In this document: piece after piece, positions 31,104-64,000 of the stretch
Numbering within the stretch: position 1 is the stretch's first letter
Layout of the letters: each line of letters begins with the position of its first letter
Assembly: GCA_013180625.2 (NCBI GenBank)
Contig: SNVD02013908.1
Coordinates: forward strand, 782,194 to 846,193
From: Boswellia sacra
Taxonomy: Eukaryota > Streptophyta > Magnoliopsida > Sapindales > Burseraceae
Direction: 5' to 3'
DNA: 64,000 nucleotides
Notes under the pieces: generated by a model
What the model was told of the DNA's origin: nothing
The model's database searches: none
What the model saw: the letters and a program-made list of their open reading frames with translations, nothing else
Program-made: the position numbers and the translations under genes

Positions 31104-32007
31104 TAGGGATGGCAAAACCTAAGGCCGGGATCGGGATCAGGGAGTGCCGACCCCTAATTTCTAAATCCAGCACCAGAAAATTCCCCAAAATTTTTTTCCC
31201 AGAGATGGGGCTGTGGCCTCGGTACCCTTGGCGGGGCCATGTTTTTTAATAACTTGAGATTAAAATCCGGGTTGTATTTTTTTTTTTTAATTCTGATATA
31301 TTTACAAACTATATATATTTTTGACATTTAGTAGTAACAGTGAAATGGGTTGCAGCCTAATGGTGGCATGTTGTACTCTGTTGTGTTGTTTCAATGCATA
31401 AGGGAATGGTTCAAGTCGTGGCAGCTTTATTTCATTTTATTTTTTTTAATTAAGCTATATATGTTTTTTACGTTCATTAGTCATAGCCAAATGGGCTGTA
31501 GCCCGGGGGTAGCTTGTGTACTATGTTTTGCCATTACAATGCGTAAGGGACTTTAATTAAGCTATATATGTTTTTTACGTTCATTAGTCATAGCCAAATG
31601 GGCTGTAGCCCGGGGGTAGCTTGTGTACTATGTTTTGCCATTACAATGCGTAAGGGACTAGGTTTGAGCATGCATGGCAGCTTTCTTTTCATTTATTTTT
31701 TTAAATTTTCGGATGGGCTGGGCTTGGGACCTTGGGTTGCTAGGCTAAAAGAAGTAGGATATGGGCTTGAATTTAAATAAGGGCTTATAAATAAGTATTA
31801 TAAACTAAGGGATGTAAAATGAATTCAATATATATCCAAATTTCAATTACTACCTCAGGTTCAATTCCGGGTCACTGGTCCCAGCACCCCCACCCCGTGC
31901 CCAGCCCCAGCCCCAGCCAGGCAGAAAATTTGTACTCCAACCCTGGCCAATTTCTCTAATTTTTTAGGTAATTCCCTAGCCCCGACTGGATCATTTTGGT
32001 ACTCTTA
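31104..32007. mobile_element. hAT-type MITE, 904 bp, perfect 8-bp TSD, internal tandem repeats
   Basis: Perfect TSD TTAGAAAC at 31096-31103 and 32008-32015. The left TIR TAGGGATGGCAAAA faces a decayed right end, TAAGAGTACCAAAA on the other strand. Ends are GC-rich like the 21324-22014 element, so the two are probably one family. The interior is dominated by tRNA-like repeat modules (see 31283-31680). No transposase is encoded. Confidence 0.85.
31283..31680 (+). repeat. tRNA/SINE-like modules in tandem (107-bp exact-type duplication)
   Basis: Units at 31451-31557 and 31558-31664 are nearly identical (period 107). A more diverged unit lies upstream at about 31290-31420. Each carries a GTAGCC..GGTGGCATGT or GTAGCCCGGGGGTAGC block resembling a pol III A box and, further on, a GGTTCAAGTC- or GGTTTGAGC-type B-box-like block. 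No cloverleaf folds convincingly, so these are not tRNA genes. Confidence 0.6.
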
Positions 32008-39156: not shown

Positions 39157-40296
39157 TTGATGGATCCATCCAAGACAACTGCTGGCTCTTGGGCTGATAA
39201 AATCAAGATCACTGATTCGAGTACCCGATGCAAATTGAGTCCGGTTACTCCTAAGAAACCGGGTACAATCCTTGAGATTCCAGATGAGATTGTCGACGAG
39301 AATTTAGTCGAATGGCGTAGATGTCTTGTTGGTTTCTTTCCGGGATATGTGATGCCCTTCCATGCTGCACATTCGATGGCGATGCGTGCATGGAAATCTA
39401 GTGGTCTTGAGGACGTCCGTTCCACGGATAAGGGATTTCTTATCTTCCGTTTTAGAACTGAGGATGAGGTACATGCAATCATTGCTCGCGGTCCTTGGAT
39501 GTTTGGAGGTAAATTCATTTACCTGCAGCCATGGCATCCGCATCTGGATTTCAATCTTACAGCATTCTGGACACTACCAGTTTGGATCCGTTTGTATGGC
39601 CTGCCGTTTCCTTTGTGGACAGCCAAAGGCCTTAGTATTATCTCCAGCATGGTTGGAGAACCTCAATCTTGTAATAAGGCGACTTCTAATCTATCTAGAT
39701 TGGAGTATGCGAGGGTTTGTGTTCTTATTGATGCAAGACGCCCTCGAGTTAAGAACTTTGAGTTCAGGTGCAAACTCTCTCCAAAGCCCATTGAAATTCA
39801 AGTTGAATATGAGTGGACTCCAAAATATTGCCCCAAATGTTGCCAGTTTGGTCATCGTTGTCCAGAACCGGTAAAGACTTCAAGTCCAGATAAGAATGAG
39901 GCTAGCACCTCTAATAGTGCCCATTTGAGAAAAGAAAATGATGTGACCAAGGTCACTGATTGCACCAAAATAGTTACTATTTCAGAAATTTCTGCAGTGC
40001 AAGTTGAGCCTCCGAAGGCTACTACAGTTCCGAGTGCAGAGTCAGTTTCAGATTCTGATTCTCCATCTCCTTTTACGACTGACGAGGGTAGACTTTTGAG
40101 CACTATCAAGTGTTCTACAAATCGTGAGGCATCTATTTCCTCAGGGTGGATACCTCCTGAGTCTTCTCCCACTCGTTTTGAGCCTTTAAATGGGCTTAGT
40201 GAGGATGATCAATCTGATAGGATTGACCATACTCATTCGGACACCCCAGCTACCCCGGTAAAGAAGGGTAAGAAGAAGAAAAACAAGAAGGGTTAA
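39157..40296 (+). CDS. LINE ORF1-like protein: DUF4283 and degenerate zinc knuckle
   Basis: Single uninterrupted frame of 379 residues. Residues about 45-180 carry the DUF4283 pattern (WRRCLVGFFPGYVMPFHAA; GFLIFRFRTEDEVHAIIARGPW; PVWIRLYGLPFPLW). This is followed by the usual partner, a zf-CCHC_4 knuckle at about 228-237: CPKCCQFGHRC has only one residue between His and the last Cys instead of about four, so it is probably unable to bind zinc normally. The C-terminal third is Ser/Glu/Pro-rich and ends in a lysine tract (KKGKKKKNKKG), plausible for nucleic-acid binding. DUF4283 proteins are the nucleic-acid-binding ORF1 of plant LINEs. The start at 39157 is chosen because the DUF-N-terminal MDPSKTTAGSWADKIK pattern begins there. 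Whether it is expressed is unknown. Confidence 0.8.
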   Translation: MMDPSKTTAGSWADKIKITDSSTRCKLSPVTPKKPGTILEIPDEIVDENLVEWRRCLVGFFPGYVMPFHAAHSMAMRAWKSSGLEDVRSTDKGFLIFRFRTEDEVHAIIARGPWMFGGKFIYLQPWHPHLDFNLTAFWTLPVWIRLYGLPFPLWTAKGLSIISSMVGEPQSCNKATSNLSRLEYARVCVLIDARRPRVKNFEFRCKLSPKPIEIQVEYEWTPKYCPKCCQFGHRCPEPVKTSSPDKNEASTSNSAHLRKENDVTKVTDCTKIVTISEISAVQVEPPKATTVPSAESVSDSDSPSPFTTDEGRLLSTIKCSTNREASISSGWIPPESSPTRFEPLNGLSEDDQSDRIDHTHSDTPATPVKKGKKKKNKKG

Positions 40297-51726: not shown

Positions 51727-52130
51727 AGAAATAGGGCGGGGCTTTTGTTAATGTGTCTTCTAATGGATTAATCTCTGTTCTGTTTGCCCCATGATCATTA
51801 TATCATATCTAGTATTATTTGTTATTAATGTTTGGATTGTTCTGTTATGTCTATGTTTAGAGGATTGTTTATTTATTCTTGTTAATGAACTCTTACAATT
51901 AAGTTACATGCAGTGACTCACTTTTGTTGTTGCCCATATCGGTATATGCCTTCAATAAATCAATCTTTGCATTCTTTGAATCAGTGTAAACCGGCATGCG
52001 TTGAGTTTTGATAGCTTAATGGGTTGATATGTGTAGCAACTGCGTAATTGGACATTTGCTGGAAGCTAGTCAGCGTAGGCAGCTGGAATGGGGTGTGTGC
52101 GCTAAATGATGTTGAGCTGTTTAAATAAGG

Positions 52131-52250
52131 GAAAATTGAAAAAATGGACAAATTTAGGGGGCTGGTTTGAAAAATGGACATGTTCTGAAATATTTTCATC
52201 CCATAGACACTTTTGTGTCTAAAAGACAAAAACACCCCTGTCCTAAAATA
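52131..52250. other. Possible terminal repeat of the mudrA-bearing MULE
   Basis: The segment GGGAAAATTGAAAAAATGGA through about AAAACACCCCTGTCC has the style of plant MULE terminal repeats (AT-rich start, then TGGACA phrases and a run of C). No inverted partner was found to the right, up to 61400, so the boundary is only suggestive. Confidence 0.3.
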
Positions 52251-52614
52251 AATTCCCAAAACCTTGTTATTTCATATCCTTCGGACAAATTTTTTTAAGA
52301 AAGACAGTAAAGCAAGACACAGAACAACGGAAACCAGTAACAGCTCGAATCACTTAACTTCACTGTCCCGAAACAACCTCAATATCTGAAGCAGTAAGCA
52401 AAACGCGTAAGAGCAACTTTTCCTTAATCTCTCTGTAAATGGCATGAAAATTTAATGTATGTGTAGTGTTTTCGTCATTGCTCGCATTGGTAACTGACAA
52501 CCGCATTATATAGCTTAAAAATGGTTTATGTATGTGAACTAAGGGTAGAGATAGTGCCGTCTGTGTGAAAAAATGCTGGAAATTGGCTGTCGGTGTGCAA
52601 AAATGGGTTTTCGC

Positions 52615-53066
52615 AGTCGAAGGTCGAAGAAGACGACTGTCTTCGAGTGTCTTCGAGTGTAGTCGAGTGTAGTCGAGTGTCGTCGAGTGTCGTCGAGTGT
52701 CGTCGAGAAGTTCTGTCGGGACCGAATCACGACAATTCGGATGGTGGTTTCGAGTGTCTAGCCATTGCCTCGATTCTAGGTTCGAGTGTTGCGTGTTCGA
52801 GTTCCGTCGAGGGTCTTGTGGATTGTCAAAAGTTCGTGTGTCGCGTGTCGAGAGTCGAGTGTAGGACGCGTGGAACCGACCTGTAGATGTCTCGAACCAT
52901 TCATGTCGAGTGTTTCGAGAGTCGTGGACACCATTTTGTCGAGCTTTCGAGTAAGAGAGTCGAGTGTACAAGTTGACGAGTGTTGGACGACGAAGTTAGT
53001 CGAGTTCGAGTGTCGTGTCACATATGTCGAGTGTCGAGTGTTTTTGTCGAGTCTCGTCGAGCGTTT
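52615..53066 (+). repeat. CGAGTGT-rich array, left of the transposase gene
   Basis: Six to seven 10-bp units of the type GTCGAGTGTC/A occur almost perfectly at about 52640-52705. Looser copies follow over 350 bp (TCGAGTGT, TCGAGAGTCGAG, GTCGAGTT). It ends with the junction motif TCGAGCGTTTTGGCAGAAC at 53057-53075, about 90 bp before the transposase start. The reverse strand is open for over 200 codons purely because of the repeat. Confidence 0.85.
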
Positions 53067-53164
53067 TGGCAGAACGCTCTTTTTTCCCACTTTTGCAAGC
53101 TATTTCATAATTATTTTTTGTCCACGGATCTTATATGATATGATATATCTCAATCATGCAGGAA

Positions 53165-55954
53165 ATGGAAACTTTACGCGTACTCATTGCATATAATGGT
53201 TCATGGATTGTGCAAGAGAACGGTAGTTATTTGTATGCCGATGGGACGGGGAAGCCATTGATAATTCGTAGATGTGCTACTTATAACGAGTTGGTTGACT
53301 GTATTAGTACTAAAATGGGTTGGGATCTTCGTAAGAAAAGAATGAGTTTAGAGGTTCAATTTTCTTGTAAGGGTGTTCTTCCAATGCCGATTCGTATTGA
53401 GACTGACGACGATGTTTCTTTTTTCATACAACATTGTTTGGAGGACCAACAATCATATACACCGTTAGTTGTTAAAGTTGAAGATAGGGAGAAGCAAAGA
53501 CAGAGGTCAGGGTCAGGATCCGATGCAATCCGTTGGCGAGAAGGATGTTCTCATCCCTCATTCTTTCGTTCAGCAAGTGGGAGCAACCAATTAAGTGAGT
53601 CTACTCCTGTTTGTGGACAACCAGAATTGAATGACGATGTTGGCGTTGAATTTGAGCAGTGTTTAGGGCATGCGGGGCATGAGTCATTTGGGGTAGGGGT
53701 GTTATTTCAAAATGAAGAAGGAGTGCCTCCATCGATGCCATCGAGATTGGTACGTCATCTTGACAGCATTAGAGAGTTTGAGAGTGTAGGTAATATTGAT
53801 GATGTTAATGATGACGATGGTGGGAATGAATATTGCGAAGATACTGACGATGGTGGTGATGATGTTCGTGTGCATGTTGACGATGACAATAATGATTACA
53901 CGGTTCATATTGAGAATGATGTTGAGGGATTGGATGATTTTGTTGTTGATGGGCACAATGTAGCCGGTTCACATTTCGATAATGAGGGAGAACGGGAGAT
54001 CTTGAATGATGTGAACCAGGATGAGCCGTTTACCGTGCCTTATCCAATTCACTCCACACCTACCGTGCCTCCTCCAATTCACTCCACACCTACTCGTCCA
54101 GTATATGGCCATCAGGAAGATCCGATGTCGAATAATGACAGCTCTCAGGCTAACACATTCAGGTGGATGCCGCCTATCGTCCATCCACCCTCCACAGATG
54201 CCGATGATGCCTCATCATTTGTAGTTGACGAGATTGAGGTTGGGGTTGGACAGATGTTTAACAGCAAAACGGAGCTTCGAGAGAAGTTAGCGATGTTGGC
54301 ATTAAGACGAAACTTTCAATTCAAGGTGAGGAACTCCAACGCCACAAGGTTTGAGGTTGTATGTCGTGCTGAATCTTGTAAATGGCGTTTACGTGCCATA
54401 AAGGTGGCCGATTCACATTTCTTCCAAGTGAAAACGTATAAGAACCACCACACGTGCTCCGGAGCCGGACTTCACCCAGTTCACAAACAGGCAACTGCAC
54501 ATGTCATTGGCAAACATATTAAGAGCAAATTCGTTGAGGCATCGAGAATATATCGTCCAAAGGATATTATGTCCGATGTTCAGGAGTCATTGGGTGTTAA
54601 CATCACGTACAATAAGGCATGGAGGGCAAAGGAGGTAGCTTTGCAAGAACTTCACGGATCTCATGATGAATCATTCACACTACTCCCTCAGTACATGTAC
54701 ATGATTGAGAAAGCAAACCCGGGGACCAAAACGTCGTTAGAAACTGATGAGGATAACCATTTCAGATACTTTTTCATGAGTATGGGGGCCTCGATTGCTG
54801 GATTTGCATCGTCAATTAGGCCAGTTATTGCAGTTGATGGTTCCTTTTTAAAAGGGAAATATAGGGGTACAATGTTTTTGGCTTCTTGTATGGATGGTAA
54901 TAAACAAATATACCCCTTGGCATTTGGAATTGGGCATTCTGAAAATGATGACTCCTGGAACTGGTTCATGAGACAGTTGCGTGATCATGTTGTACAAAAT
55001 GTCCGAGATCTTGTCTTCATTTCTGACCGTCATCGTAGTATTGAACGTGCTGTGGTTGCAGTTTTTCCTAATGCACTGCATGGATTGTGCACTCATCATC
55101 TCAAGGGTAACTTGAAGGCAACGTTCAAGGACAAGACTTTGTTGGAATTGTACTACCGCGCTGCAAGGACATATCATTGTGCTGATTTCAACTATCATAT
55201 GCGACAAATTGAATCGCATATGCCAGCAGCAGCAACTTATCTTCGAGAGATCGGAGTCGAGAAATGGGCACGTTCACAGTTTCATGGTCGGCGGTATAAC
55301 ATAATGACAACAAATATAGCTGAGTCGATGAACAGCTGTTTGCGACACCATCGATTCCTCCCGGTGACGTTGTTAGCTGATTATTTTCGGGCCAACTTGC
55401 AGAAATGGTTCTATGAGCGTCGACAGCTATTTGCTAACTCAGAATCACATCTCTCACCCTGGGCAAACAAGTTGATGAATGAGCGTTTAAAAGAAGGAGA
55501 TCGTATGAGGGTTAGTGGTATATCTCTTACTATGTATGAGGTTAGAGGCAACGACCGTGTTTGCATAGTTGACATGCACGCGCGTACATGCACGTGCCGT
55601 GTGTTTGATCTTGACCAGCTTCCGTGTGCACATGTATTAGCGGTATGCAAACGTATGAATCTCCTTACATGCCATGATTACTGTGCCCATTGGTATACCA
55701 CCGAAACATTGTTACATGCATATGCTCTCCCAGTAGTTCCTGTTGGAGTTAGTGAGGATTGGGTGGTTCCTGAGGAGGTTCGCAGTAGAGTGGTTCTCCC
55801 GCCAGTGATGAGGAGACCAGCCGGTCGTCCTCGGAGGAATCGAATCCCTTCTGTCGGTGAGTCTAGCTCCTCTCGATCTTGCGGGCGTTGTGGAAGTTCC
55901 GGGCACAATCGTCAAACATGCCGAAACCCAGTTCCGCTGCATGACAGGGGATGA
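53165..55954 (+). CDS. Mutator-like transposase (mudrA/MURA type), full length
   Basis: One uninterrupted exon. The frame opens at 53156, but TGCAG|GAA at 53155 looks like a 5'-UTR splice acceptor, so METLRVLIAYNG at 53165 is preferred; residue numbers below count from 53156. Order: N-terminal PB1-like domain (about 4-100); acidic Asp-rich spacer (about 210-275); an IHSTPT duplication; MuDR DNA-binding domain (about 360-450, with CRAESCKWRLRA and HHTCSG); MULE catalytic domain with Asp561 (AVDGSFLKG), Asp624 (FISDRH) and candidate Glu723 (NIAES); SWIM zinc finger CTC...PCAH at 812-826; CCHC knuckle CGRCGSSGHNRQTC at 909-922. All expected parts are present and no stop is seen, so the element could encode an active enzyme. 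It cuts and integrates MULE DNA in the nucleus; activity is not shown by sequence. Confidence 0.93.
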   Translation: METLRVLIAYNGSWIVQENGSYLYADGTGKPLIIRRCATYNELVDCISTKMGWDLRKKRMSLEVQFSCKGVLPMPIRIETDDDVSFFIQHCLEDQQSYTPLVVKVEDREKQRQRSGSGSDAIRWREGCSHPSFFRSASGSNQLSESTPVCGQPELNDDVGVEFEQCLGHAGHESFGVGVLFQNEEGVPPSMPSRLVRHLDSIREFESVGNIDDVNDDDGGNEYCEDTDDGGDDVRVHVDDDNNDYTVHIENDVEGLDDFVVDGHNVAGSHFDNEGEREILNDVNQDEPFTVPYPIHSTPTVPPPIHSTPTRPVYGHQEDPMSNNDSSQANTFRWMPPIVHPPSTDADDASSFVVDEIEVGVGQMFNSKTELREKLAMLALRRNFQFKVRNSNATRFEVVCRAESCKWRLRAIKVADSHFFQVKTYKNHHTCSGAGLHPVHKQATAHVIGKHIKSKFVEASRIYRPKDIMSDVQESLGVNITYNKAWRAKEVALQELHGSHDESFTLLPQYMYMIEKANPGTKTSLETDEDNHFRYFFMSMGASIAGFASSIRPVIAVDGSFLKGKYRGTMFLASCMDGNKQIYPLAFGIGHSENDDSWNWFMRQLRDHVVQNVRDLVFISDRHRSIERAVVAVFPNALHGLCTHHLKGNLKATFKDKTLLELYYRAARTYHCADFNYHMRQIESHMPAAATYLREIGVEKWARSQFHGRRYNIMTTNIAESMNSCLRHHRFLPVTLLADYFRANLQKWFYERRQLFANSESHLSPWANKLMNERLKEGDRMRVSGISLTMYEVRGNDRVCIVDMHARTCTCRVFDLDQLPCAHVLAVCKRMNLLTCHDYCAHWYTTETLLHAYALPVVPVGVSEDWVVPEEVRSRVVLPPVMRRPAGRPRRNRIPSVGESSSSRSCGRCGSSGHNRQTCRNPVPLHDRG

Positions 55955-56194
55955 TGTATACCAAATGTGTAAACCAAATGTTGATGTTTGCAACATTGTC
56001 TCTTTTTTTTTTTTTTTAAACAAATCCTAAGCTTTTGAAAATAATATATTTTGGGTGTTGGATTTTGGCACTGTAAAGCAGTATTATTGTATTAAACACA
56101 TCTTTATGGGCGTTGTTGTTAAACAAAATAATCTTACCTGACGCCCAACCGAAAAATAATTTGGTATCTGATTCGAAATCTATAAGAAACAAGT

Positions 56195-56680
56195 GTTCTG
56201 TCCAATCGCTCGACGACACTCGACGGTAGAAACTCGACGCTCGACTTAATTAGCGGAACAGAAAATGAAATGAAATGAAGGGAATGAAAATGAAAAAAAC
56301 GAATGTTCGGTCTAAACGCTCGACGCAACTCGAAGGTATAACTCGACGCTCGATCTACACGACACACAGCCCCTCGAAGCTCGATCATATTGAACACGAA
56401 CACGCGAAGCTCGATCAACATGTCACACGAACACTCGAAGCCCGACCAACACGTCACACGAACACTCGAAGCGCGACCACCACGTCACACGAACACTCGA
56501 AGCGTGATCAACCGGTCAGACAAACACTCGAAGCGCGGTTCACTTCGTCACACCAACACTCGAAGCTCGAGCACACGTCAGACAAACACTCGAAGAACGA
56601 CTAAACCTGTCACACGACCACTCGACGCTCGAGCTCACGGCACACGAAGACTCGAACCTCGACTCTCGAACTCCGGAGGG
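56195..56680 (-). repeat. CGAGTGT-rich array, inverted orientation, right of the transposase gene
   Basis: Written on the plus strand as ACACTCGA. About nine units with 31-bp spacing (core ACACTCGAAGC.CGACCA, then CACGTCACACGA) occupy 56375-56650. The outer side carries the junction motif inverted, twice: 56195-56214 and 56305-56324 (on the minus strand TCGAGCGATTGGACAGAAC and TCGAGCGTTTAGACCGAAC). It mirrors the left array, so the transposase gene is flanked by inverted repeats of this type. Confidence 0.82.
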
Positions 56681-57107
56681 TCTATAATGTAATTTGCCTC
56701 GTCTCGACCCTCGACCCGCGACTCGCGATGACTGACACGTGGGGAGCTCGAACTTTGGGGTTTAAAAAGTTCTAGTTCTACCGTCACTTCCCGCTTCACT
56801 GCCATTTACTCCTACAAACCGTTTCAACTCTCCAAACTCACAGTTACGCACAGACAACGGTTGGGACGCAAACAGACGCGCAGCGACAATCATCTCAACT
56901 CCCGGCGACCACAGCACCGATCGGCATTCAGGTACGGCGTTTATTTACCGGCCATGCATGTTGTTTTCACTAGTTCAGTGGATTTAGGGCTGTTTAATAA
57001 TGTTTAGGCCGTTTATGTTTGTATATGTGATTTGAAAATGTATTGTATGTGGTTGGTTTCGGCTGTCGTTGCCGGAAATTTACAAAGGAGTTATGTTGTG
57101 GTAGTGA

Positions 57108-57245
57108 CACACTCGACACTCGGCAAATGAGTTTTGTCGAGTGTTGTCGAGATATGTCTAGTGTTGTCGAGACATGTCGAGTGTAGTCGTGTTATGTCGA
57201 GTCTTGTCGAGTTTGTCGTGTTTCGTCGAGCTTTATCGAGCGTTT
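57108..57245 (+). repeat. CGAGTGT-rich array upstream of the protease gene
   Basis: About ten GTCGAG words (GTCGAGTGTTGTCGAG, GTCGAGACATGTCGAG and others), ending in the junction motif TCGAGCGTTTAGGCAGAATG at 57236-57255. Orientation is the same as the array before the transposase. It lies about 100 bp before the protease start codon, probably inside a 5'-UTR intron. Confidence 0.8.
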
Positions 57246-57342
57246 AGGCAGAATGCATGCTTTGTGGCTGTTTTTGGCTGTTTTTTTGCCTTTTTGTTTC
57301 ATATTGAACTATAATGGACTTCTTTTTGCCAATTTGAAGCAA

Positions 57343-60300
57343 ATGGCTGGTGAATTTGGACTGTCCTTCACGCTTAAGACACCGGATACGGAACACTACC
57401 AGGCCGTGGTCACAAACATGGCAGGTTGGGACTGTATACAATGGATCCGGGCGAGCTTCAGTGCGAGGCAGAAGGAGATGTTTCGTGCAACATGTTTCGG
57501 ATTTCTCCTAGACATCCGTCGGCTCTCCTTTCCGTCTCAGTTGGCGCACCACGTGCTTCAGTGGGAGGTTAACACCGTGGGGTACGACCGGGAGATGTGG
57601 TTCCTTGTTGAAGGTAAAAAATTGGTTTTCATGTACAATGTTGTTACAAAGTCATAGTTTTGCACGTATGATATTTTTAGTTATTTAACTGTAACATCGT
57701 TGTCATCTTATGTAATTTTTTTCCTTATTTGCAGGACGACTCATTCGTTTTTCTGCGCACGAGTTCGGTTTGATAACCGGCTTACGATTTGCTTCCACGG
57801 TGCCACCAATACCGACGATGTTGCATCCGTGCCGATTGTTGGATACATACTTCGATGGCATGGACTTGGATCTCATCGCTTTGTATGAAAATCTTAAGAA
57901 TATGAATGTGTCTCGTATGCCAGACGAGGATGTCGTGAAGCTAGGCGTGTACTACGTGCTTGAGCGTTTCTTCATGGCCCGGGATAGACGCCGACACGTG
58001 TCTAGGACATGGTTGAATTTTGTAGACAGACTGGATGAATTTAATACGTATCCATGGGGTTCGTTGTCCTACGAAAAGACATTGGGCTCGATGAAGAGGG
58101 CTTTGGTTGGGAGGTTAGAAAATTACAAGAGGCGAGCCCAAGCGAAGACGAGGCAGGTGGAGCGCTATAACTTGGAGGGGTGCCCGTACGCCTTTCAGGT
58201 ACGTTCTGCTATCCATGAGTGTGACCGTGTTGATTTCTGTTTGATGTAATTTTAGTCCATGTCACTAACTAACCTGTTCGATGTAATTAAGGTTTGGTTG
58301 TACGAGGCCGTGCCTTACTTTGGCACACATTTTGGTACAGTGCCACAGGAATGCGCGGCGAGGATACCACGGTTGTTGAAGTGGGAGACAGTTAAGACCC
58401 CGTCCCAGAACGCTACCTACACTGATATACTGAGGGTTAGGAGGCGGGTTAGTACGAATCCTGTGTTACATCGAATTGTCTTGTTTTTTGTTCAACCAAA
58501 AACTGATAACAGTTTCGCGTGATCTGATTATATGTTGACGCAGGCTAGGCCGCTCGTCGTTTTAGAGCCGTCCGTTGTGGAGCAGCAGACGGAGTGGTAT
58601 GCACGGCTCAATGAAGTAGTTGGCATCCGTAGAGGTGCACATGTGGCTTGGGCAACAGCTACGGATGCTCCTTTACTGGCGGCGGAGAGCATTGAGCCAC
58701 TTCCTGCTGAGGCGGCTGCAGCTCCACCTCCGGAGGGACCAGCAGCTCCACCTCCGGAAGGCCCATTAGGTCCACATCCAGAGGGTCCAGCAGGACCACC
58801 CCCTGAGGGACCGGGACCAGCAGCTCCACCTCCGGAGGGTCCATCAGCACCACCTCCGGAGGGTCTGCCAGCTCCACCTCCTGAGGGACCGGGACCAGCA
58901 GCTCCACCTCCGGAGGGTCCATCAGCACCACCTCCGGAGGGTCCGCCAGCTCCACCTCCGGAGGGTCCATCAGCACCACCTCCGGAGGGTCTGCCAGCTC
59001 CACCTCCTGAGGGACCGTCAGCTCCACCTCCTGAGCTCTCATCCGCTTCACCTCCTGCTGGCATCAGTTCCCCTGTTGACCCGGATGTGGTTGCAGCAAC
59101 AGACACGGACAGTCCTGACATGGACGTAGGGCCTGGCAGTCCACCGCTGGAGCCTTTAAGTCCACTGCCAGAGCCGTTCCATAGTTCCGGAGCTCCAGGA
59201 GCATCGACGACGGCGTCGGGTCGGCAGGTAAGAAATGCCAGTCGGCATTAATATTCTTGTACGTATACATTTGCTGCTCTGTTGGTTAATGAAGACCCTT
59301 GTTACAATTCTCATGCAGGTGCCGCCGGTCCATGACGACTTCCAGCGCACAGTTTTGCGTGAACTTGCTCTGTTACGGGCGGAGAACAGGGAAATGCGTG
59401 AGGAGATAGCTCGTCTCCGCGAGGCCGTTCTGGACCTCGGTGCGAACTTCGGAAACGATGACACGGTACTTTCCAATATTTACATACTGGATTTTGACCT
59501 GTTCCACACACGCTTAAGCTGATGGTTATGTTTGTCTGATTTCAGGATTCAGATGCTGATTCCGACGGAGGTCCGGGTGATGACGGTGATGGTCCGCCGC
59601 CCGCGATTCCTGATTCCGTTAACCGGAATGTTCCTGCAGCCGATGCTCCTCCGGCAGCCTTAGTTTCACGCAGGGGTCGCCGCCTCCTACCAGCAAAGCA
59701 TAAGCGAAGCCCCTTTGTCAGTCCACCAGGTAGGAAGAGGCCGAGGGTTCAGCAGCAGGAGGAAGCCACTGACCAGCAGCAGCCACAGCCCTCGGAGGAA
59801 GCCGCAGACCAGCAGCAGCCACAGTCAGAGGCCCCTTTACAATCCGAGGCGCCTATTGCTCAGTCGGAAGACAATCGATCTCAGTGGCCATCAGCAGATG
59901 TAGGAACTGGTCTCATTTTGTGACCTCCGGTTCCACTTTTCGACCCACGTGCCCTGATAGCAGAAGTTGACATGAAGGGATTCCACGCGTGGCTGGCGAA
60001 CGACACCAGAACAGATCGCGCTGAGTTGGCAGTCTTCAGCGCAGATCGTAAGTTCTTCACGACGCTGATCAGCCCATCAGAATGGCTTGAAGCTGAGGTA
60101 CTTTCATATCATCTCTGGCTGTCGAATATTGCTATATACAATTGGATTCCTTATTGATAGCAATTGTTGTTTTCAGCACATAGACAGCTACTTGTGGGTT
60201 CTACGGTGCAGAGCTCGCGCCGTGACCAGACCTGGTGTACAGAGGTCTGCTTTCCTCGACACCACTTTTTGGGTACGTAAATCGTAGACATCTTACATTA

Positions 60301-61172
60301 ACAATTTGTCACTTGAAATTTATGATTCCTTCAATGCGCTAACTGAACTCATGAACTTGCAGTTGAAATTGAAGTCGTTGTGGGCGCTATACTCGAAAAG
60401 ATTGGACGACATTACCTGGGCAAATGAGGAGGACATGGTCCAGTATATCCTAGGACAGGTGCCCCTCGCTGGAACACCATGGGTCGACGTTGATAGGGTG
60501 AGAACATTTATATTCACTGAATTAGCATGTGCCATCTTATTTAAAATGTTGTGATTCATTTCCATTTCCGTGTTGTCAATTCGTTTTCAGCTCTATCTCC
60601 CAGTACACCTCACCGATGATCATTGGGTGGCAGCAGAGGTGCATTTGAATCGCCGTCAGATTTCCATATACGACTCATCTATTGGGCATACTTCTACGGA
60701 CATAGTCATGCAGACAGTCCGGTGCCTCGCTGAGCTACTACCCCGTATGGTGTCAATGGAGGTTTACGGTATTCCTGACTATCCCACAACCCCATTTGAC
60801 ATTATGCGAATCGAGGACGTGGAGCAGGTGCCACAGCAGGAGCCTGGGGGAGGGGCATGCGGCGTGTACTGTTTGAAGTACATCGAGTTCCTAGCGGGGG
60901 GCGTTCCACTGACCGAGATTAAGGCATTCCAGGACGACGAATGCCGGGAGAGAATGGCATTACATCTTTGGATCAGCCGCGAAAACCCACAAGAGGCGGC
61001 CCCGCCCATCCTGGTGCCCTACGACATCAAGGCGCTGTTGCCTCAACCGGTAGTGCCTGCTGATGTTGCAGCTGCTGATGTTGCAGTCACTACCGCGACT
61101 GGACATGATGTGTCAGGAGATGTTATGACCACTATTGCCCATGACGACGTTGATTCAGCGAAGGTCAAGTAG
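57343..61172 (+). CDS. MULE-associated DUF1985 + ULP1/C48 protease gene, nine exons, one in-frame TGA
   Basis: Exons: 57343-57613, 57735-58198, 58292-58447, 58544-59227, 59319-59465, 59546-60097, 60177-60272, 60363-60497, 60591-61172. All introns are GT-AG and phases fit, giving 1028 codons. Residues about 1-110 hold a DUF1985 domain (MFRATCFGFLLDIRRL; MWFLVEGRLIRFSAHEFGLI). Exon 4 encodes about 14 PPPEGP repeats; exon 5 a short Leu/Glu/Arg coiled coil; exon 6 a Gln/Pro-rich linker with a basic patch. The C-terminus is a ULP1-like cysteine protease with His846 (DDHW), Asp863 (IYDSS) and Cys925 (GGGACGVY), plus Gln917/918. This family deconjugates SUMO-like modifiers; here it belongs to the type carried by Kaonashi-like MULEs. 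A TGA at 59921-59923 (codon 700) would cut off the protease unless it is read through or spliced out. The start follows a probable 5'-UTR splice acceptor at 57339-57340. Confidence 0.82.
58714..59037 (+). repeat. 24-bp coding minisatellite (PPPEGP repeats)
   Basis: About 14 tandem units of CCACCTCCGGAGGGTCCAGC type, some extended by GGACCGGGACCAGCAGCT. They keep the frame of exon 4. The minus strand is also open (Gly/Ser/Pro-rich) as a by-product. Confidence 0.9.
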
Positions 61173-61423
61173 CAGCCGAGCACGTTGGGACCATGAGATC
61201 ACCTATTTTTTTTGTATATATTATGTTTAGTTAAACAAAATTGTTTTTTTTTTTTGTTTTTGGACACTAACACATTATTGTATAGTACATGTTTTTTATA
61301 GTAGCACATGGTTACGATATATAGTTGTACGAAAACTTGTAAATACACAATATTCTATAGTGACATTATTTAATGGACTAATCACACATACCTCCCCTGG
61401 GCTTTTGCTTAATTTCATTCATA
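61173..61423. other. 3' flank of the protease gene
   Basis: T-rich, non-coding. It probably includes the 3' UTR of the protease gene. No CGAGTGT array and no inverted partner of 52131-52250 was found here. Confidence 0.45.
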
Positions 61424-61921
61424 AACACTGTTTACCATTTTCCATTATACGATACCCCTTACTTTTTTGAAATTAATCATCGAAACCCCTTCCGTCAGTT
61501 TTGCCGTTAATTGTATGAAAATAAATGTAATGAATATGGAAAAAAAAAAGTAAACCCATCTAATTAGTTCTGCTGACCAGTCTCACGGAAGCTGCTCACA
61601 GAACCCAAGTGCTCTTCGCTGCCTCCCCTGCACTGCGCACGCTGATAGCAAGAGTTCAGTTGAGTTGAGTTGATGCAAAATGAAGTTTAACATAGCAAAC
61701 CCAACCACTGGTTGCCACAACAAGCTTGAGATAGATGACGATCAGAAGCCCGAGTCTTTTTAGATAGGAGGAGCTCCCAAGAATTTAGTACAGATGTTCT
61801 GGGGTCTACAATTCATGGATATGTTTTTAAGATCATGGGAGGCTGCGACAAGCAAGGATTCCCAATGGAACTGGGAGTTCTGACTCCTGGTCGTGTTCAT
61901 CTTTTGCTTCAAAGAGGAACC

Positions 61922-63607
61922 TGTTGACCCAGGTATGGCAACCCAAGAGGGGGGGGGGGGTGATTTGGGTTTTTATTTATCAAAATGGATTTGTAAAACT
62001 TTTCTTGAATAACCAAAATTAGTTTACTCTATCTTTATTAGTTTACTCTTTCTTTAGGAATAAAGGTGAAGAATATGAAATTAGAAGTTATGAAAGATGC
62101 AAAGAGAATAACAATAACGAACAATCACAAGAGCAAGTAAATATAAAGAGATAGCGATAGAGAGAGTGCAAACTCAATTTACGTGGTTCGGCAAATCTTG
62201 CCTACGTCCACGGGCTCCTAGCTCCAAGCTAGGCTTTCCACTGAGTTGTAAAAATCTTTACAACTTGCTTGATGAACAACAACACCAAGACTTTTTCTTC
62301 AACTCTTGACAACACTACACCAAGAGTTCTTCTTGATGAACAACCTCACCGAGGTAACTTTCTTCAACTCTTCATAACACCAAACCAAGAGTTCTCTCAA
62401 GGATAACTTTTATCCTTTACAAGGAGATCTCACTCTCACCACAGTACAAGAACGAATAAAAAAACATCAGCCACAAAAGCACAACTCTATTCAAAGAGTA
62501 GATAAAGAATATAAAAGTTCTGTAGACTTGATATTTCTCTTGTTTTTTGCTTGCTAGATGCCTCTCTTGCTCTGTTTGAATCCATGGGAGAAGGGCTCCT
62601 TTTATAGGCAATTTGATTGAACTTAATCAAGTTAAGACACCAACTCCAAATTTTCTTCCCACCATAAAAAACGTAATCTTGTCTGCCACTTTTTTCAATG
62701 TTCTGTTTGAAATTTGAAAATCTGCAACAACCAAGTCATTTGGATATTTGTAGCTCAAGATATGGCCAAAACACCATTCGGCGCTCATGTGAATTGATTT
62801 TTCTTTCATATGTCAGTCCACCGATTTGCATGTGTATTATGTCGGCCTTCCGTTTCAAATTTGAATTTCTTCAAAGAATATAAAATGTGATCCATTGAAT
62901 CATCTTTCCAATGCCACAAGAATCAAGTCATTTGGATATCTCTAGCTCAAGATATGGATAACACATCATTCGGTACTCATATGAGTTGATTTTTCTTCTC
63001 TGTGTCAGTCCAACAAATTGCATGTCAATTATGTCGGCCTTCCATTTGAAATTTGAATTTCTTCTAAACATATAAAATGTGCCCCATTAAGTCCTTTTTT
63101 CAATGCCACAATAATCAAGTCATTTTTATATTTCTATCTCAAGATATGTCCAAAAGAGTATTCGGTGCTCATGTCAGTTGCTTCCGTTTGTCTTTCAAAT
63201 TGCATAAAAATTTGGACAACCTTACACTTGAAATTTGAATTTCTTTAAAACGTATGAAATGTTATAAATTGAGTAAACTTTCCAAAGGGTCAAGAATCAC
63301 TTCATTTGGACATCTGTAGAAAAATATATGACCAATTGATTGAACATTGCTCATGTAACGCATTCCTTGAATCAAATCTTGTTCTTCAACTTTTGTGCCT
63401 TTAACATGTAGTATTCTCCTTTGGCTTCAACACTACTTTTGTGCCTTAACATGTAGTATTCTCCTTTGGCTTCAACACTTCATTTTAATAAGCACCATCT
63501 TGATTTTGCAATTATTTCAATAATCTTATTCTTGCGCATAAATATAATCTCAATGAATCAATGTGTATTGTTATCATCAAAATTATCATGTAGCCTTAGG
63601 GCTAACA
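61922..63607. mobile_element. LTR-like insertion within the captured S6 gene
   Basis: S6 coding sequence breaks at the codon ACC (61921) and picks up at CCT TGC (63614). The inserted block starts TGTTGACC and ends GGCTAACA, as LTRs do. It contains ACGTGGTTCGGC...CCTACGTCCACGGG (62180-62211), a phrase shared with the LTR-like block near 24120. A solo LTR is the simplest reading. The flanking pentamers do not clearly match, and no coding region is seen. A run of 12 G occurs at 61949-61960. Confidence 0.55.
62690..63330. repeat. ~190-bp tandem repeats in the LTR-like insertion
   Basis: Four diverged units, each with AAGTCATTTGGATATCTCTA and CTCAAGATATGG, then CATTCGG.GCTCATGT and GAAATTTGAATTTCTTC. 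Unit anchors lie at about 62732, 62926, 63117 and 63297. A separate ~45-bp direct repeat (TGTGCCTTTAACATGTAGTA type) follows at about 63390-63479. Confidence 0.75.
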
Positions 63608-64000
63608 ATCTCCCCTTGCTTCAGAGGTTATGGAAGGCGCAATGGAGAGCGAACGAGGAAATCTGTTCGTGGATGCATTGTTAATCAAGATCTGTTTGTA
63701 TTGAACTTGGTTATAGTTAAGAAGGATGAGAACGATCTACCTGGGTTGACAGACAGTGGAAACCCAACGATGAGCGGTCCAAAAAGGGTATCCCAAATTA
63801 GGAAGCTTTTTAGCCTCTCAAAGGAGGATGATGTTCGGAAGTATGTGAACACCTACCACAAAACATTCACAACAATATCTGGCAAGAAAGTTAGGGGTAC
63901 CGTATGATGTCACTTAACGGCAAAACTGACAGAAGGGGTGCCCATGATGAATTTCGAAAAAGTCAGGGCTACCGTATGATGAAATGTAACAAACAGTGTT

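Follow-up and report, generated by a model that had tools for sequence, protein, structure and literature searches.

We describe a Mutator-like element (MULE) with long terminal inverted repeats (TIRs) and 9-bp target site duplications (TSDs) in a 64,000-nucleotide stretch of the Boswellia sacra genome (contig SNVD02013908.1; hereafter the window). The element carries three arrays, A, B, and C, rich in the short word TCGAGTGT, together with two genes on the plus strand, a mudrA-type transposase gene and a downstream gene encoding a DUF1985 domain and an Ulp1-type protease domain. The arrays are probably clusters of sites bound by the DUF1985 protein that the element itself encodes and that, judging from sequence, would resemble the VANC proteins of Arabidopsis and act in sequence-specific anti-silencing. 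This reading draws on the adjacency of a VANC-kind gene, with VANC21 as its sole structural match, and on the position of the arrays in noncoding parts, as for the sites of VANC21. It is further supported by the shift of the words with the DUF1985 clade, the conservation of the core TCGAG between the two terminal arrays, the retention of both terminal arrays in internally deleted copies, the preference of same-strand cores for a 10.5-bp phase, and the apparent youth of the family.

Exact copies of TCGAGTGT numbered 24 in the window, all inside 52643-57184, against 0.73 expected; the largest count in 100 dinucleotide shuffles was 3. Array A contained 14 of these, all on the plus strand (52643-53041), array B seven, all on the minus strand (56216-56593), and array C two on the plus and one on the minus strand (57109-57184). 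The core TCGAG was likewise distributed with a strong strand bias (plus to minus, 24:2 in A, 2:25 in B when taken to 56735, and 8:1 in C), by which arrays A and B face each other. The repeat period was 10 bp in A (52634-52707), whereas B was built of a 31-bp unit (10.4 copies, 56341-56662) and C showed periods of 10 and 20 bp (within 57129-57240). The observed/expected ratio of CpG reached 1.83-2.01 in the arrays, compared with 0.44-0.85 in four other stretches of the element and 0.58 in positions 1-52128. An earlier note on this DNA had reported three word-rich arrays with these strands, a 10-bp spacing in one and a 31-bp spacing in another, an abundance of CG sites, and a third array preceding a protease gene; all of this was borne out, with array C lying just upstream of the DUF1985 and Ulp1 gene. 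An end block, TCGAGCGWTT, followed a few bases on by a GAAYRY-like stretch, is common to all three arrays and occurs at 53057 and 57236 (plus) and at 56213 and 56323 (minus), marking the right-hand end of both A and C and the left, mudrA side of B.

Splice-like sequences read directly from the DNA would place arrays A and C within introns of the 5' untranslated regions (UTRs) of the two genes, and splicing of the first of these introns would shift the mudrA start to the ATG at 53165. Such positions, just upstream of the two genes and in candidate 5'-UTR introns, are what might be expected of promoter or intron enhancers recognized by host transcription factors. We consider that explanation improbable, because array B is oriented away from the VANC-like gene and because related families in one genome differ in their word, a pattern not expected if a single host factor served them all.

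Genome-wide searches covered the 638.6-Mb assembly holding the window, whose end is also the end of its contig; the copy counts below may include duplicate contigs, and several rest on the best matches of longer lists. The left end of the element is at 52129, while its right end lies beyond 64000, past the contig end, so that a search for TIRs within the window alone returned no element ends. The element start, GGGAAAATTGAAAAAATGGAC, was exact in 27 of 30 fetched loci, carried one difference in two, and was not found in L008, and comparison of 29 flanks gave a single matching pair, L009 and L011, which looks like a duplicate contig. Copies of array A, scored as the best 40 of 724 candidates, were 95-100% identical to it. 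Three internally deleted copies (L032-L034) extend to the right end, where the outer ~223 bp of the TIR is 99.1-100% identical to the left ends. The inner TIR, comprising array and leader, is 84-89% identical between ends; it reaches the first mudrA codons in L032 and L034 and is shorter in L033, giving a TIR length of about 0.8-1.07 kb with the array part included. Their TSDs matched at 9/9, 9/9, and 8/9 positions, and the transposase domains together with a TSD within the 8-11 bp described for MULEs (PMC6446971) identify the element as a MULE. Because the right TIR of L032 and L034 takes in the leader of mudrA and its first codons, the right end looks like a reconstruction made from the left one.

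The right TIR of these copies also contains a fourth array, A', which lies outside the window and is the inverted partner of A; both terminal arrays were kept in all three internally deleted copies examined. Three motifs at 10-bp spacing were found at 332 places genome-wide (reversed control, 0), and the 100 places listed resolved into 57 arrays with 10 neighbouring same-contig pairs less than 20 kb apart. Among these listed places, all 10 pairs ran plus then minus, at distances of 2.4-12.0 kb, with four at 11.8-12.03 kb; the latter spacing plus the array-to-end distances yields an estimated full length of about 12.7-12.9 kb. Taken together, the left end at 52129, the right TIR past 64000, and the pair spacings establish A and A' as the terminal pair and B and C as internal arrays. 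The earlier proposal of a terminal or subterminal pair formed by A and B therefore stands only for A, which lies in the left TIR and does face B; B is internal, and the partner is A'. The assignment of the arrays to a transposon has held, and the inverted pairing around the element and the outer ends with 9-bp TSDs, both suggested beforehand as checks, were found, the pairing being that of A with A'.

The mudrA gene is an uninterrupted frame of 932 amino acids with the Pfam domains DBD_Tnp_Mut, MULE, Transposase_mut, and SWIM, in keeping with the full-length transposase first described, and its single match in the protein database was a distant transposase from Momordica (39% over 41% of the query). 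Ten of the best 40 mudrA matches, the window's own included, tied at the top score over 1001 bp; given these ties, and TSDs intact in two of three copies and 8/9 in the third, the family looks young. Among the best 40 of 1107 candidate mudrA copies, 24 had one of the best 40 array matches 672-685 bp upstream, and two more (C677 and C2466) had an array in the genome-wide motif listing. Four others (C3087, C3726, C1740, and C1616) had no strict three-in-a-row listed, yet an array was present on inspection; each held 9-11 exact words plus 20-23 TCGAG, and changes broke the 10-bp run. These four confirm the anatomy only. Copies of this mudrA lacking the arrays, which the earlier note had named as evidence that would count against it, were not seen among the 30 of the best 40 that were checked, all of which carried an array.

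An alternative is that the arrays serve the transposase itself. The TNPA sites of CACTA elements and the Ac transposase sites are binding clusters of the transposase type, and arrays A and A', inverted, near both ends, and retained in every deleted copy examined, could be platforms used by the mudrA transposase for excision. We regard this as unlikely, although less so than recognition by host factors, since both internal arrays, B and C, are over 4 kb away from the left end and an estimated distance of over 7 kb from the right one, the array-free and nearly invariant outer ~223 bp suffices as a candidate transposase site, and the array words differ among DUF1985 clades.

The gene downstream of mudrA has an open frame with GT/AG borders and nine inferred exons (see the table), interrupted in the window copy by an in-frame TGA near 59922, inside the exon at 59546-60097. 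The two parts on either side of the TGA were searched separately: the upstream one matched DUF1985 (PF09331, E=3.9e-17), with a plant mobile domain below threshold, and the downstream one matched Peptidase_C48/Ulp1 (PF02902, E=2.4e-24). Proline-rich tandem peptide repeats are encoded at 58718-59035. In a search of the whole Protein Data Bank (PDB) with the N-terminal part, VANC21 (9lnj/9lnk) was the sole match, with E=0.0048 from the single sequence; a 12-row profile built on the main DUF1985 exon gave E=0.0024. These two domains and the sole PDB match indicate that the gene is of the VANC kind, a predicted relative of the Arabidopsis VANDAL anti-silencing protein. The DUF1985 part had no match in the protein database, and single-sequence structure prediction of its exon gave a mean predicted local distance difference test (pLDDT) score of 46.5, too low to serve for a fold comparison. 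A same-strand DUF1985 match was located 5064-5299 bp downstream of 21 of the 40 array A copies (5104 bp in the window) when 51 of 150 DUF1985 matches were used for the pairing.

Relatives of the DUF1985 gene were sought genome-wide, with the best 150 of 1158 candidates scored, all above the cut-off, and 46 loci were compared with the window (the 30 best and 16 picked across lower scores). Upstream k-mers were evaluated against 100 dinucleotide shuffles, L051 being too short and L035 offering only 302 bp. A tree of one exon separated two clades, that of the window (n=8) with a support of 1.0. In six of its eight loci, a significant upstream k-mer was built on GTCGA or GTCGG: CGAGTGT/GTCGAGT in the window, TGTCGAG in L075, L077, and L079, TGTCGAG plus TGTCGGA in L078, and TGTCGAA in L076, whose DUF1985 is just 32-35% identical. 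In the other clade, nine of 38 tested loci were significant, with GCACGAC and/or AGATTGC words, mostly in 22-, 52-, or 74-bp units, in L037, L038, L040, L043, L044, and L061, CAATCTG in L055, and other words in L048 and L057; CGAGTGT occurred in none of the 30 loci L035-L064. A subset of loci in this distant clade carries the word GCACGACC, unrelated to that of the window. The word changes with the DUF1985 clade, and related families differ in their word. Upstream of L037, L038, L040, L043, and L044, a palindrome, GCACGACCGGGTCGTGC, alternates with TGCAATCT words in the 22/52/74-bp units. Within the window clade, a mudrA end adjoining the DUF1985 gene was seen in the window and L077 only, among stretches some of which may start too late to include one, and the stretch L081, where the left end of the L076 element was expected, contained no array and no match to the window element.

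Alignment of array A with the A' of L034, and likewise of L032, showed 48 differences in 500 sites. Constraint was examined downstream of the 10-bp run, using an A versus A' (L034) alignment with one long gap. TCGAG positions defined in A were changed at 2/70 sites compared with 28/220 elsewhere (Fisher p=0.010), and those defined in A' at 3/70 compared with 27/220 (p=0.039). A similar result was obtained for TCGAGTGT positions (1/47 versus 29/243, p=0.028, in A; 2/56 versus 28/234, p=0.044, in A'), and random 8-mer placements were equally good in 86 of 5000 trials. The CpGs outside TCGAG were changed at 6/35 sites, which argues that the conservation of TCGAG is not a general CpG effect. Relative to random placement, same-strand TCGAG pairs favoured a 10.5-bp phase in A (p=0.02), B (p=0.008), C (p=0.04), and less so in A' (p=0.09), a modest helical phasing. 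Sasaki et al. (2022, EMBO J), on eudicot anti-silencing, reportedly stress motif density and helical periodicity. The arrays might also be functionless products of the neutral tandem duplication of a short stretch; such arrays arise easily, and the length of the 10-bp run differs between A and A' and among copies. We nevertheless give this explanation the least credence of all, because one core recurs in four separate arrays with a strand bias, TCGAG is constrained, and related words recur in six of the eight loci of the window clade.

Several observations weigh against the interpretation of the arrays as platforms for the VANC-like protein. The constraint test draws on few sites, tried several words with no correction, and uses an alignment with one long gap; moreover, A and A' are also TIR, and their conservation could serve transposition. 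The phase test ignores tandem duplication, and the 29 near-identical copies held too few changes for CpG decay to be informative (3/2868 cells in the array, 5/2678 in mudrA). Sequence similarity to VANC21 is weak, the window copy's VANC-like frame holds the in-frame TGA, and L031 lacks the middle of the gene. In the window clade, L074 and L080 had no significant upstream k-mer, and L074 is among the closest in DUF1985 (72-74%) yet shows only a weak 10-bp repeat; in the other clade, 29 of 38 tested loci were not significant, and the positives are close relatives that count as few events. The interpretation is built on sequence.

Even so, platforms for the VANC-like protein are the best reading of the arrays, and the binding platform first proposed in the earlier note is retained here, with the VANC-like protein as the putative binder. 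A VANC-like protein produced from the gene downstream of mudrA would read a core near GTCGAG/TCGAGTGT in the noncoding parts of the element, namely in both TIRs (the left being the mudrA promoter side), the intergenic gap, and the leader of the VANC-like gene. Closely packed sites on one strand, some of them spaced in helical register, would favour strong binding to the family and weak binding elsewhere in the genome. The bound protein would counter local DNA methylation, and the transposase and the VANC-like protein could remain expressed, while internally deleted copies with both terminal arrays might be freed from silencing and mobilized in trans. A more elaborate version is tentative and rather doubtful as a whole. 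With a CpG in its word, the binder may read methylation itself, recognizing TCGAG exclusively when it is unmethylated or with a preference for its methylated form. The platforms would have been copied into both TIRs along with the leader and start codon of mudrA, the TIR would combine the roles of transposase end, promoter, and anti-silencing switch, and the Ulp1 domain might target silencing factors that depend on SUMO where the protein is bound.

The closest known counterpart is the Arabidopsis VANDAL/VANC system. VANC21 is described as binding YAGTATTAY in vivo and in vitro at tandem repeats in noncoding regions, in introns of VANB21/VANC21 and upstream of VANA21 (PMC5735166), whereas the VANC6 word, AGTTGTCC/AC, is unlike that of VANC21, and VANC expression strips methylation across target elements (PMC5735166, PMC10398659). 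VANC proteins bear tandem peptide repeats, and VANC systems have been proposed as sequence-specific epigenome-editing tools (PMC5735166). A long motif platform, which the earlier note did not know for MULEs, therefore has a precedent in the DUF1985-bound motif clusters of VANDAL elements (PMC5735166). The window element shares with this system a MULE transposase accompanied by a DUF1985 protein with tandem peptide repeats, noncoding tandem arrays of one word, and words that differ between related families. It differs in its long, array-holding TIRs and in a word containing CpG, and it is known from sequence alone. VANDALs are described as non-TIR MULEs with degenerate or absent TIRs (PMC10398659, PMC6446971), although some members of the clade do have TIRs (PMC6446971). 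We read the present system as a variant of the known VANC kind, with its own word and with arrays within long TIRs, and not as a VANDAL. The KI-MULE/KIU (Kaonashi) elements are MULEs with an Ulp1 domain in the VANC-type gene (PMC13317346, PMC2528002), a combination also found here; they are described as non-TIR, with an Ulp1 gene that runs reverse to mudrA, unlike the same-direction genes and long TIRs of the window element, and both gene orientations occur in ULP-bearing MULEs of other plants (PMC2528002). According to a review that cites eudicot work, Ulp1-bearing VANC genes (KIU) have the same kind of effect on the elements of their own type (PMC13317346).

Other comparisons are more distant. 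Maize MuDR-type MULEs have long TIRs, a mudrA-type transposase, a 9-bp TSD, and mudrB; the window element agrees in the first three, with a DUF1985/Ulp1 gene in place of mudrB and motif arrays in addition. CACTA (En/Spm) elements have CACTA termini, a 3-bp TSD, and subterminal TNPA sites. Their short sites clustered near both ends resemble the terminal arrays, and TnpA has been linked to DNA demethylation (PMC10398659). They nevertheless belong to another superfamily with other proteins, and the window element has internal arrays, ends in GGGAAAATTG, and makes a 9-bp TSD.

Beyond the VANC-like gene, the element continues into a segment that contains fragments of a ribosomal protein S6 gene (PF01092, 3.1e-13) and has a 90-nt inverted repeat of its own (81%). 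The segment is complete in L031, a long copy that lacks window positions 58183-60149 and whose right end was not reached in the stretch, and partial in L032-L034, and it is either a nested insertion in the MULE or captured sequence; the inverted repeat as an independent neighbour was ruled out, as it is internal to the family. Elsewhere in the window are a perfect 107-bp tandem duplication at 31445-31659 (2.0 copies, 100%) and an open reading frame at 39157-40296 with a DUF4283 domain (6.7e-29), which we take to be a piece of an unrelated retroelement.

Table. Features of the element in window coordinates
Feature	Coordinates	Strand	Remarks
Outer left TIR	52129-52351	+	starts GGGAAAATTGAAAAAATGGAC; near-identical inverted copy at right ends of other copies
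Candidate mudrA 5'-UTR intron with array A	52394-53161	+	GT donor 52394; AG acceptor ends 53161; inferred
Array A, left-TIR part	52615-53066	+	inverted relative in right TIR of L032, L033, L034
mudrA-type transposase	53156-55954	+	first ATG 53156
Array B, mudrA/VANC-like intergenic	56195-56735	-	
Candidate VANC-like 5'-UTR intron with array C	56932-57339	+	GT donor 56932; AG acceptor ends 57339; inferred
Array C	57108-57245	+	
VANC-like gene	57343-61173	+	exons inferred
VANC-like exons 1-5 (inferred)	57343-57613, 57735-58198, 58292 to ~58435, 58544-59227, 59319-59465	+	
VANC-like exons 6-9 (inferred)	59546-60097, 60177-60272, 60363-60497, 60591-61173	+	
Internal segment, ribosomal protein S6 fragments	61424-64000		to window end

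If the arrays are platforms for the VANC-like protein, sequence-specific anti-silencing by transposons would also be a property of a TIR-type MULE family that has expanded recently and whose word contains a CpG. Should the TIR also prove to be a CpG-reading switch, every internally deleted copy would inherit the full switch. The several DUF1985 families in this one genome, with the series TGTCGAG, TGTCGAA, TGTCGGA, and GCACGACC, may provide a means of following how protein and target change together and of addressing direct methylation sensing.

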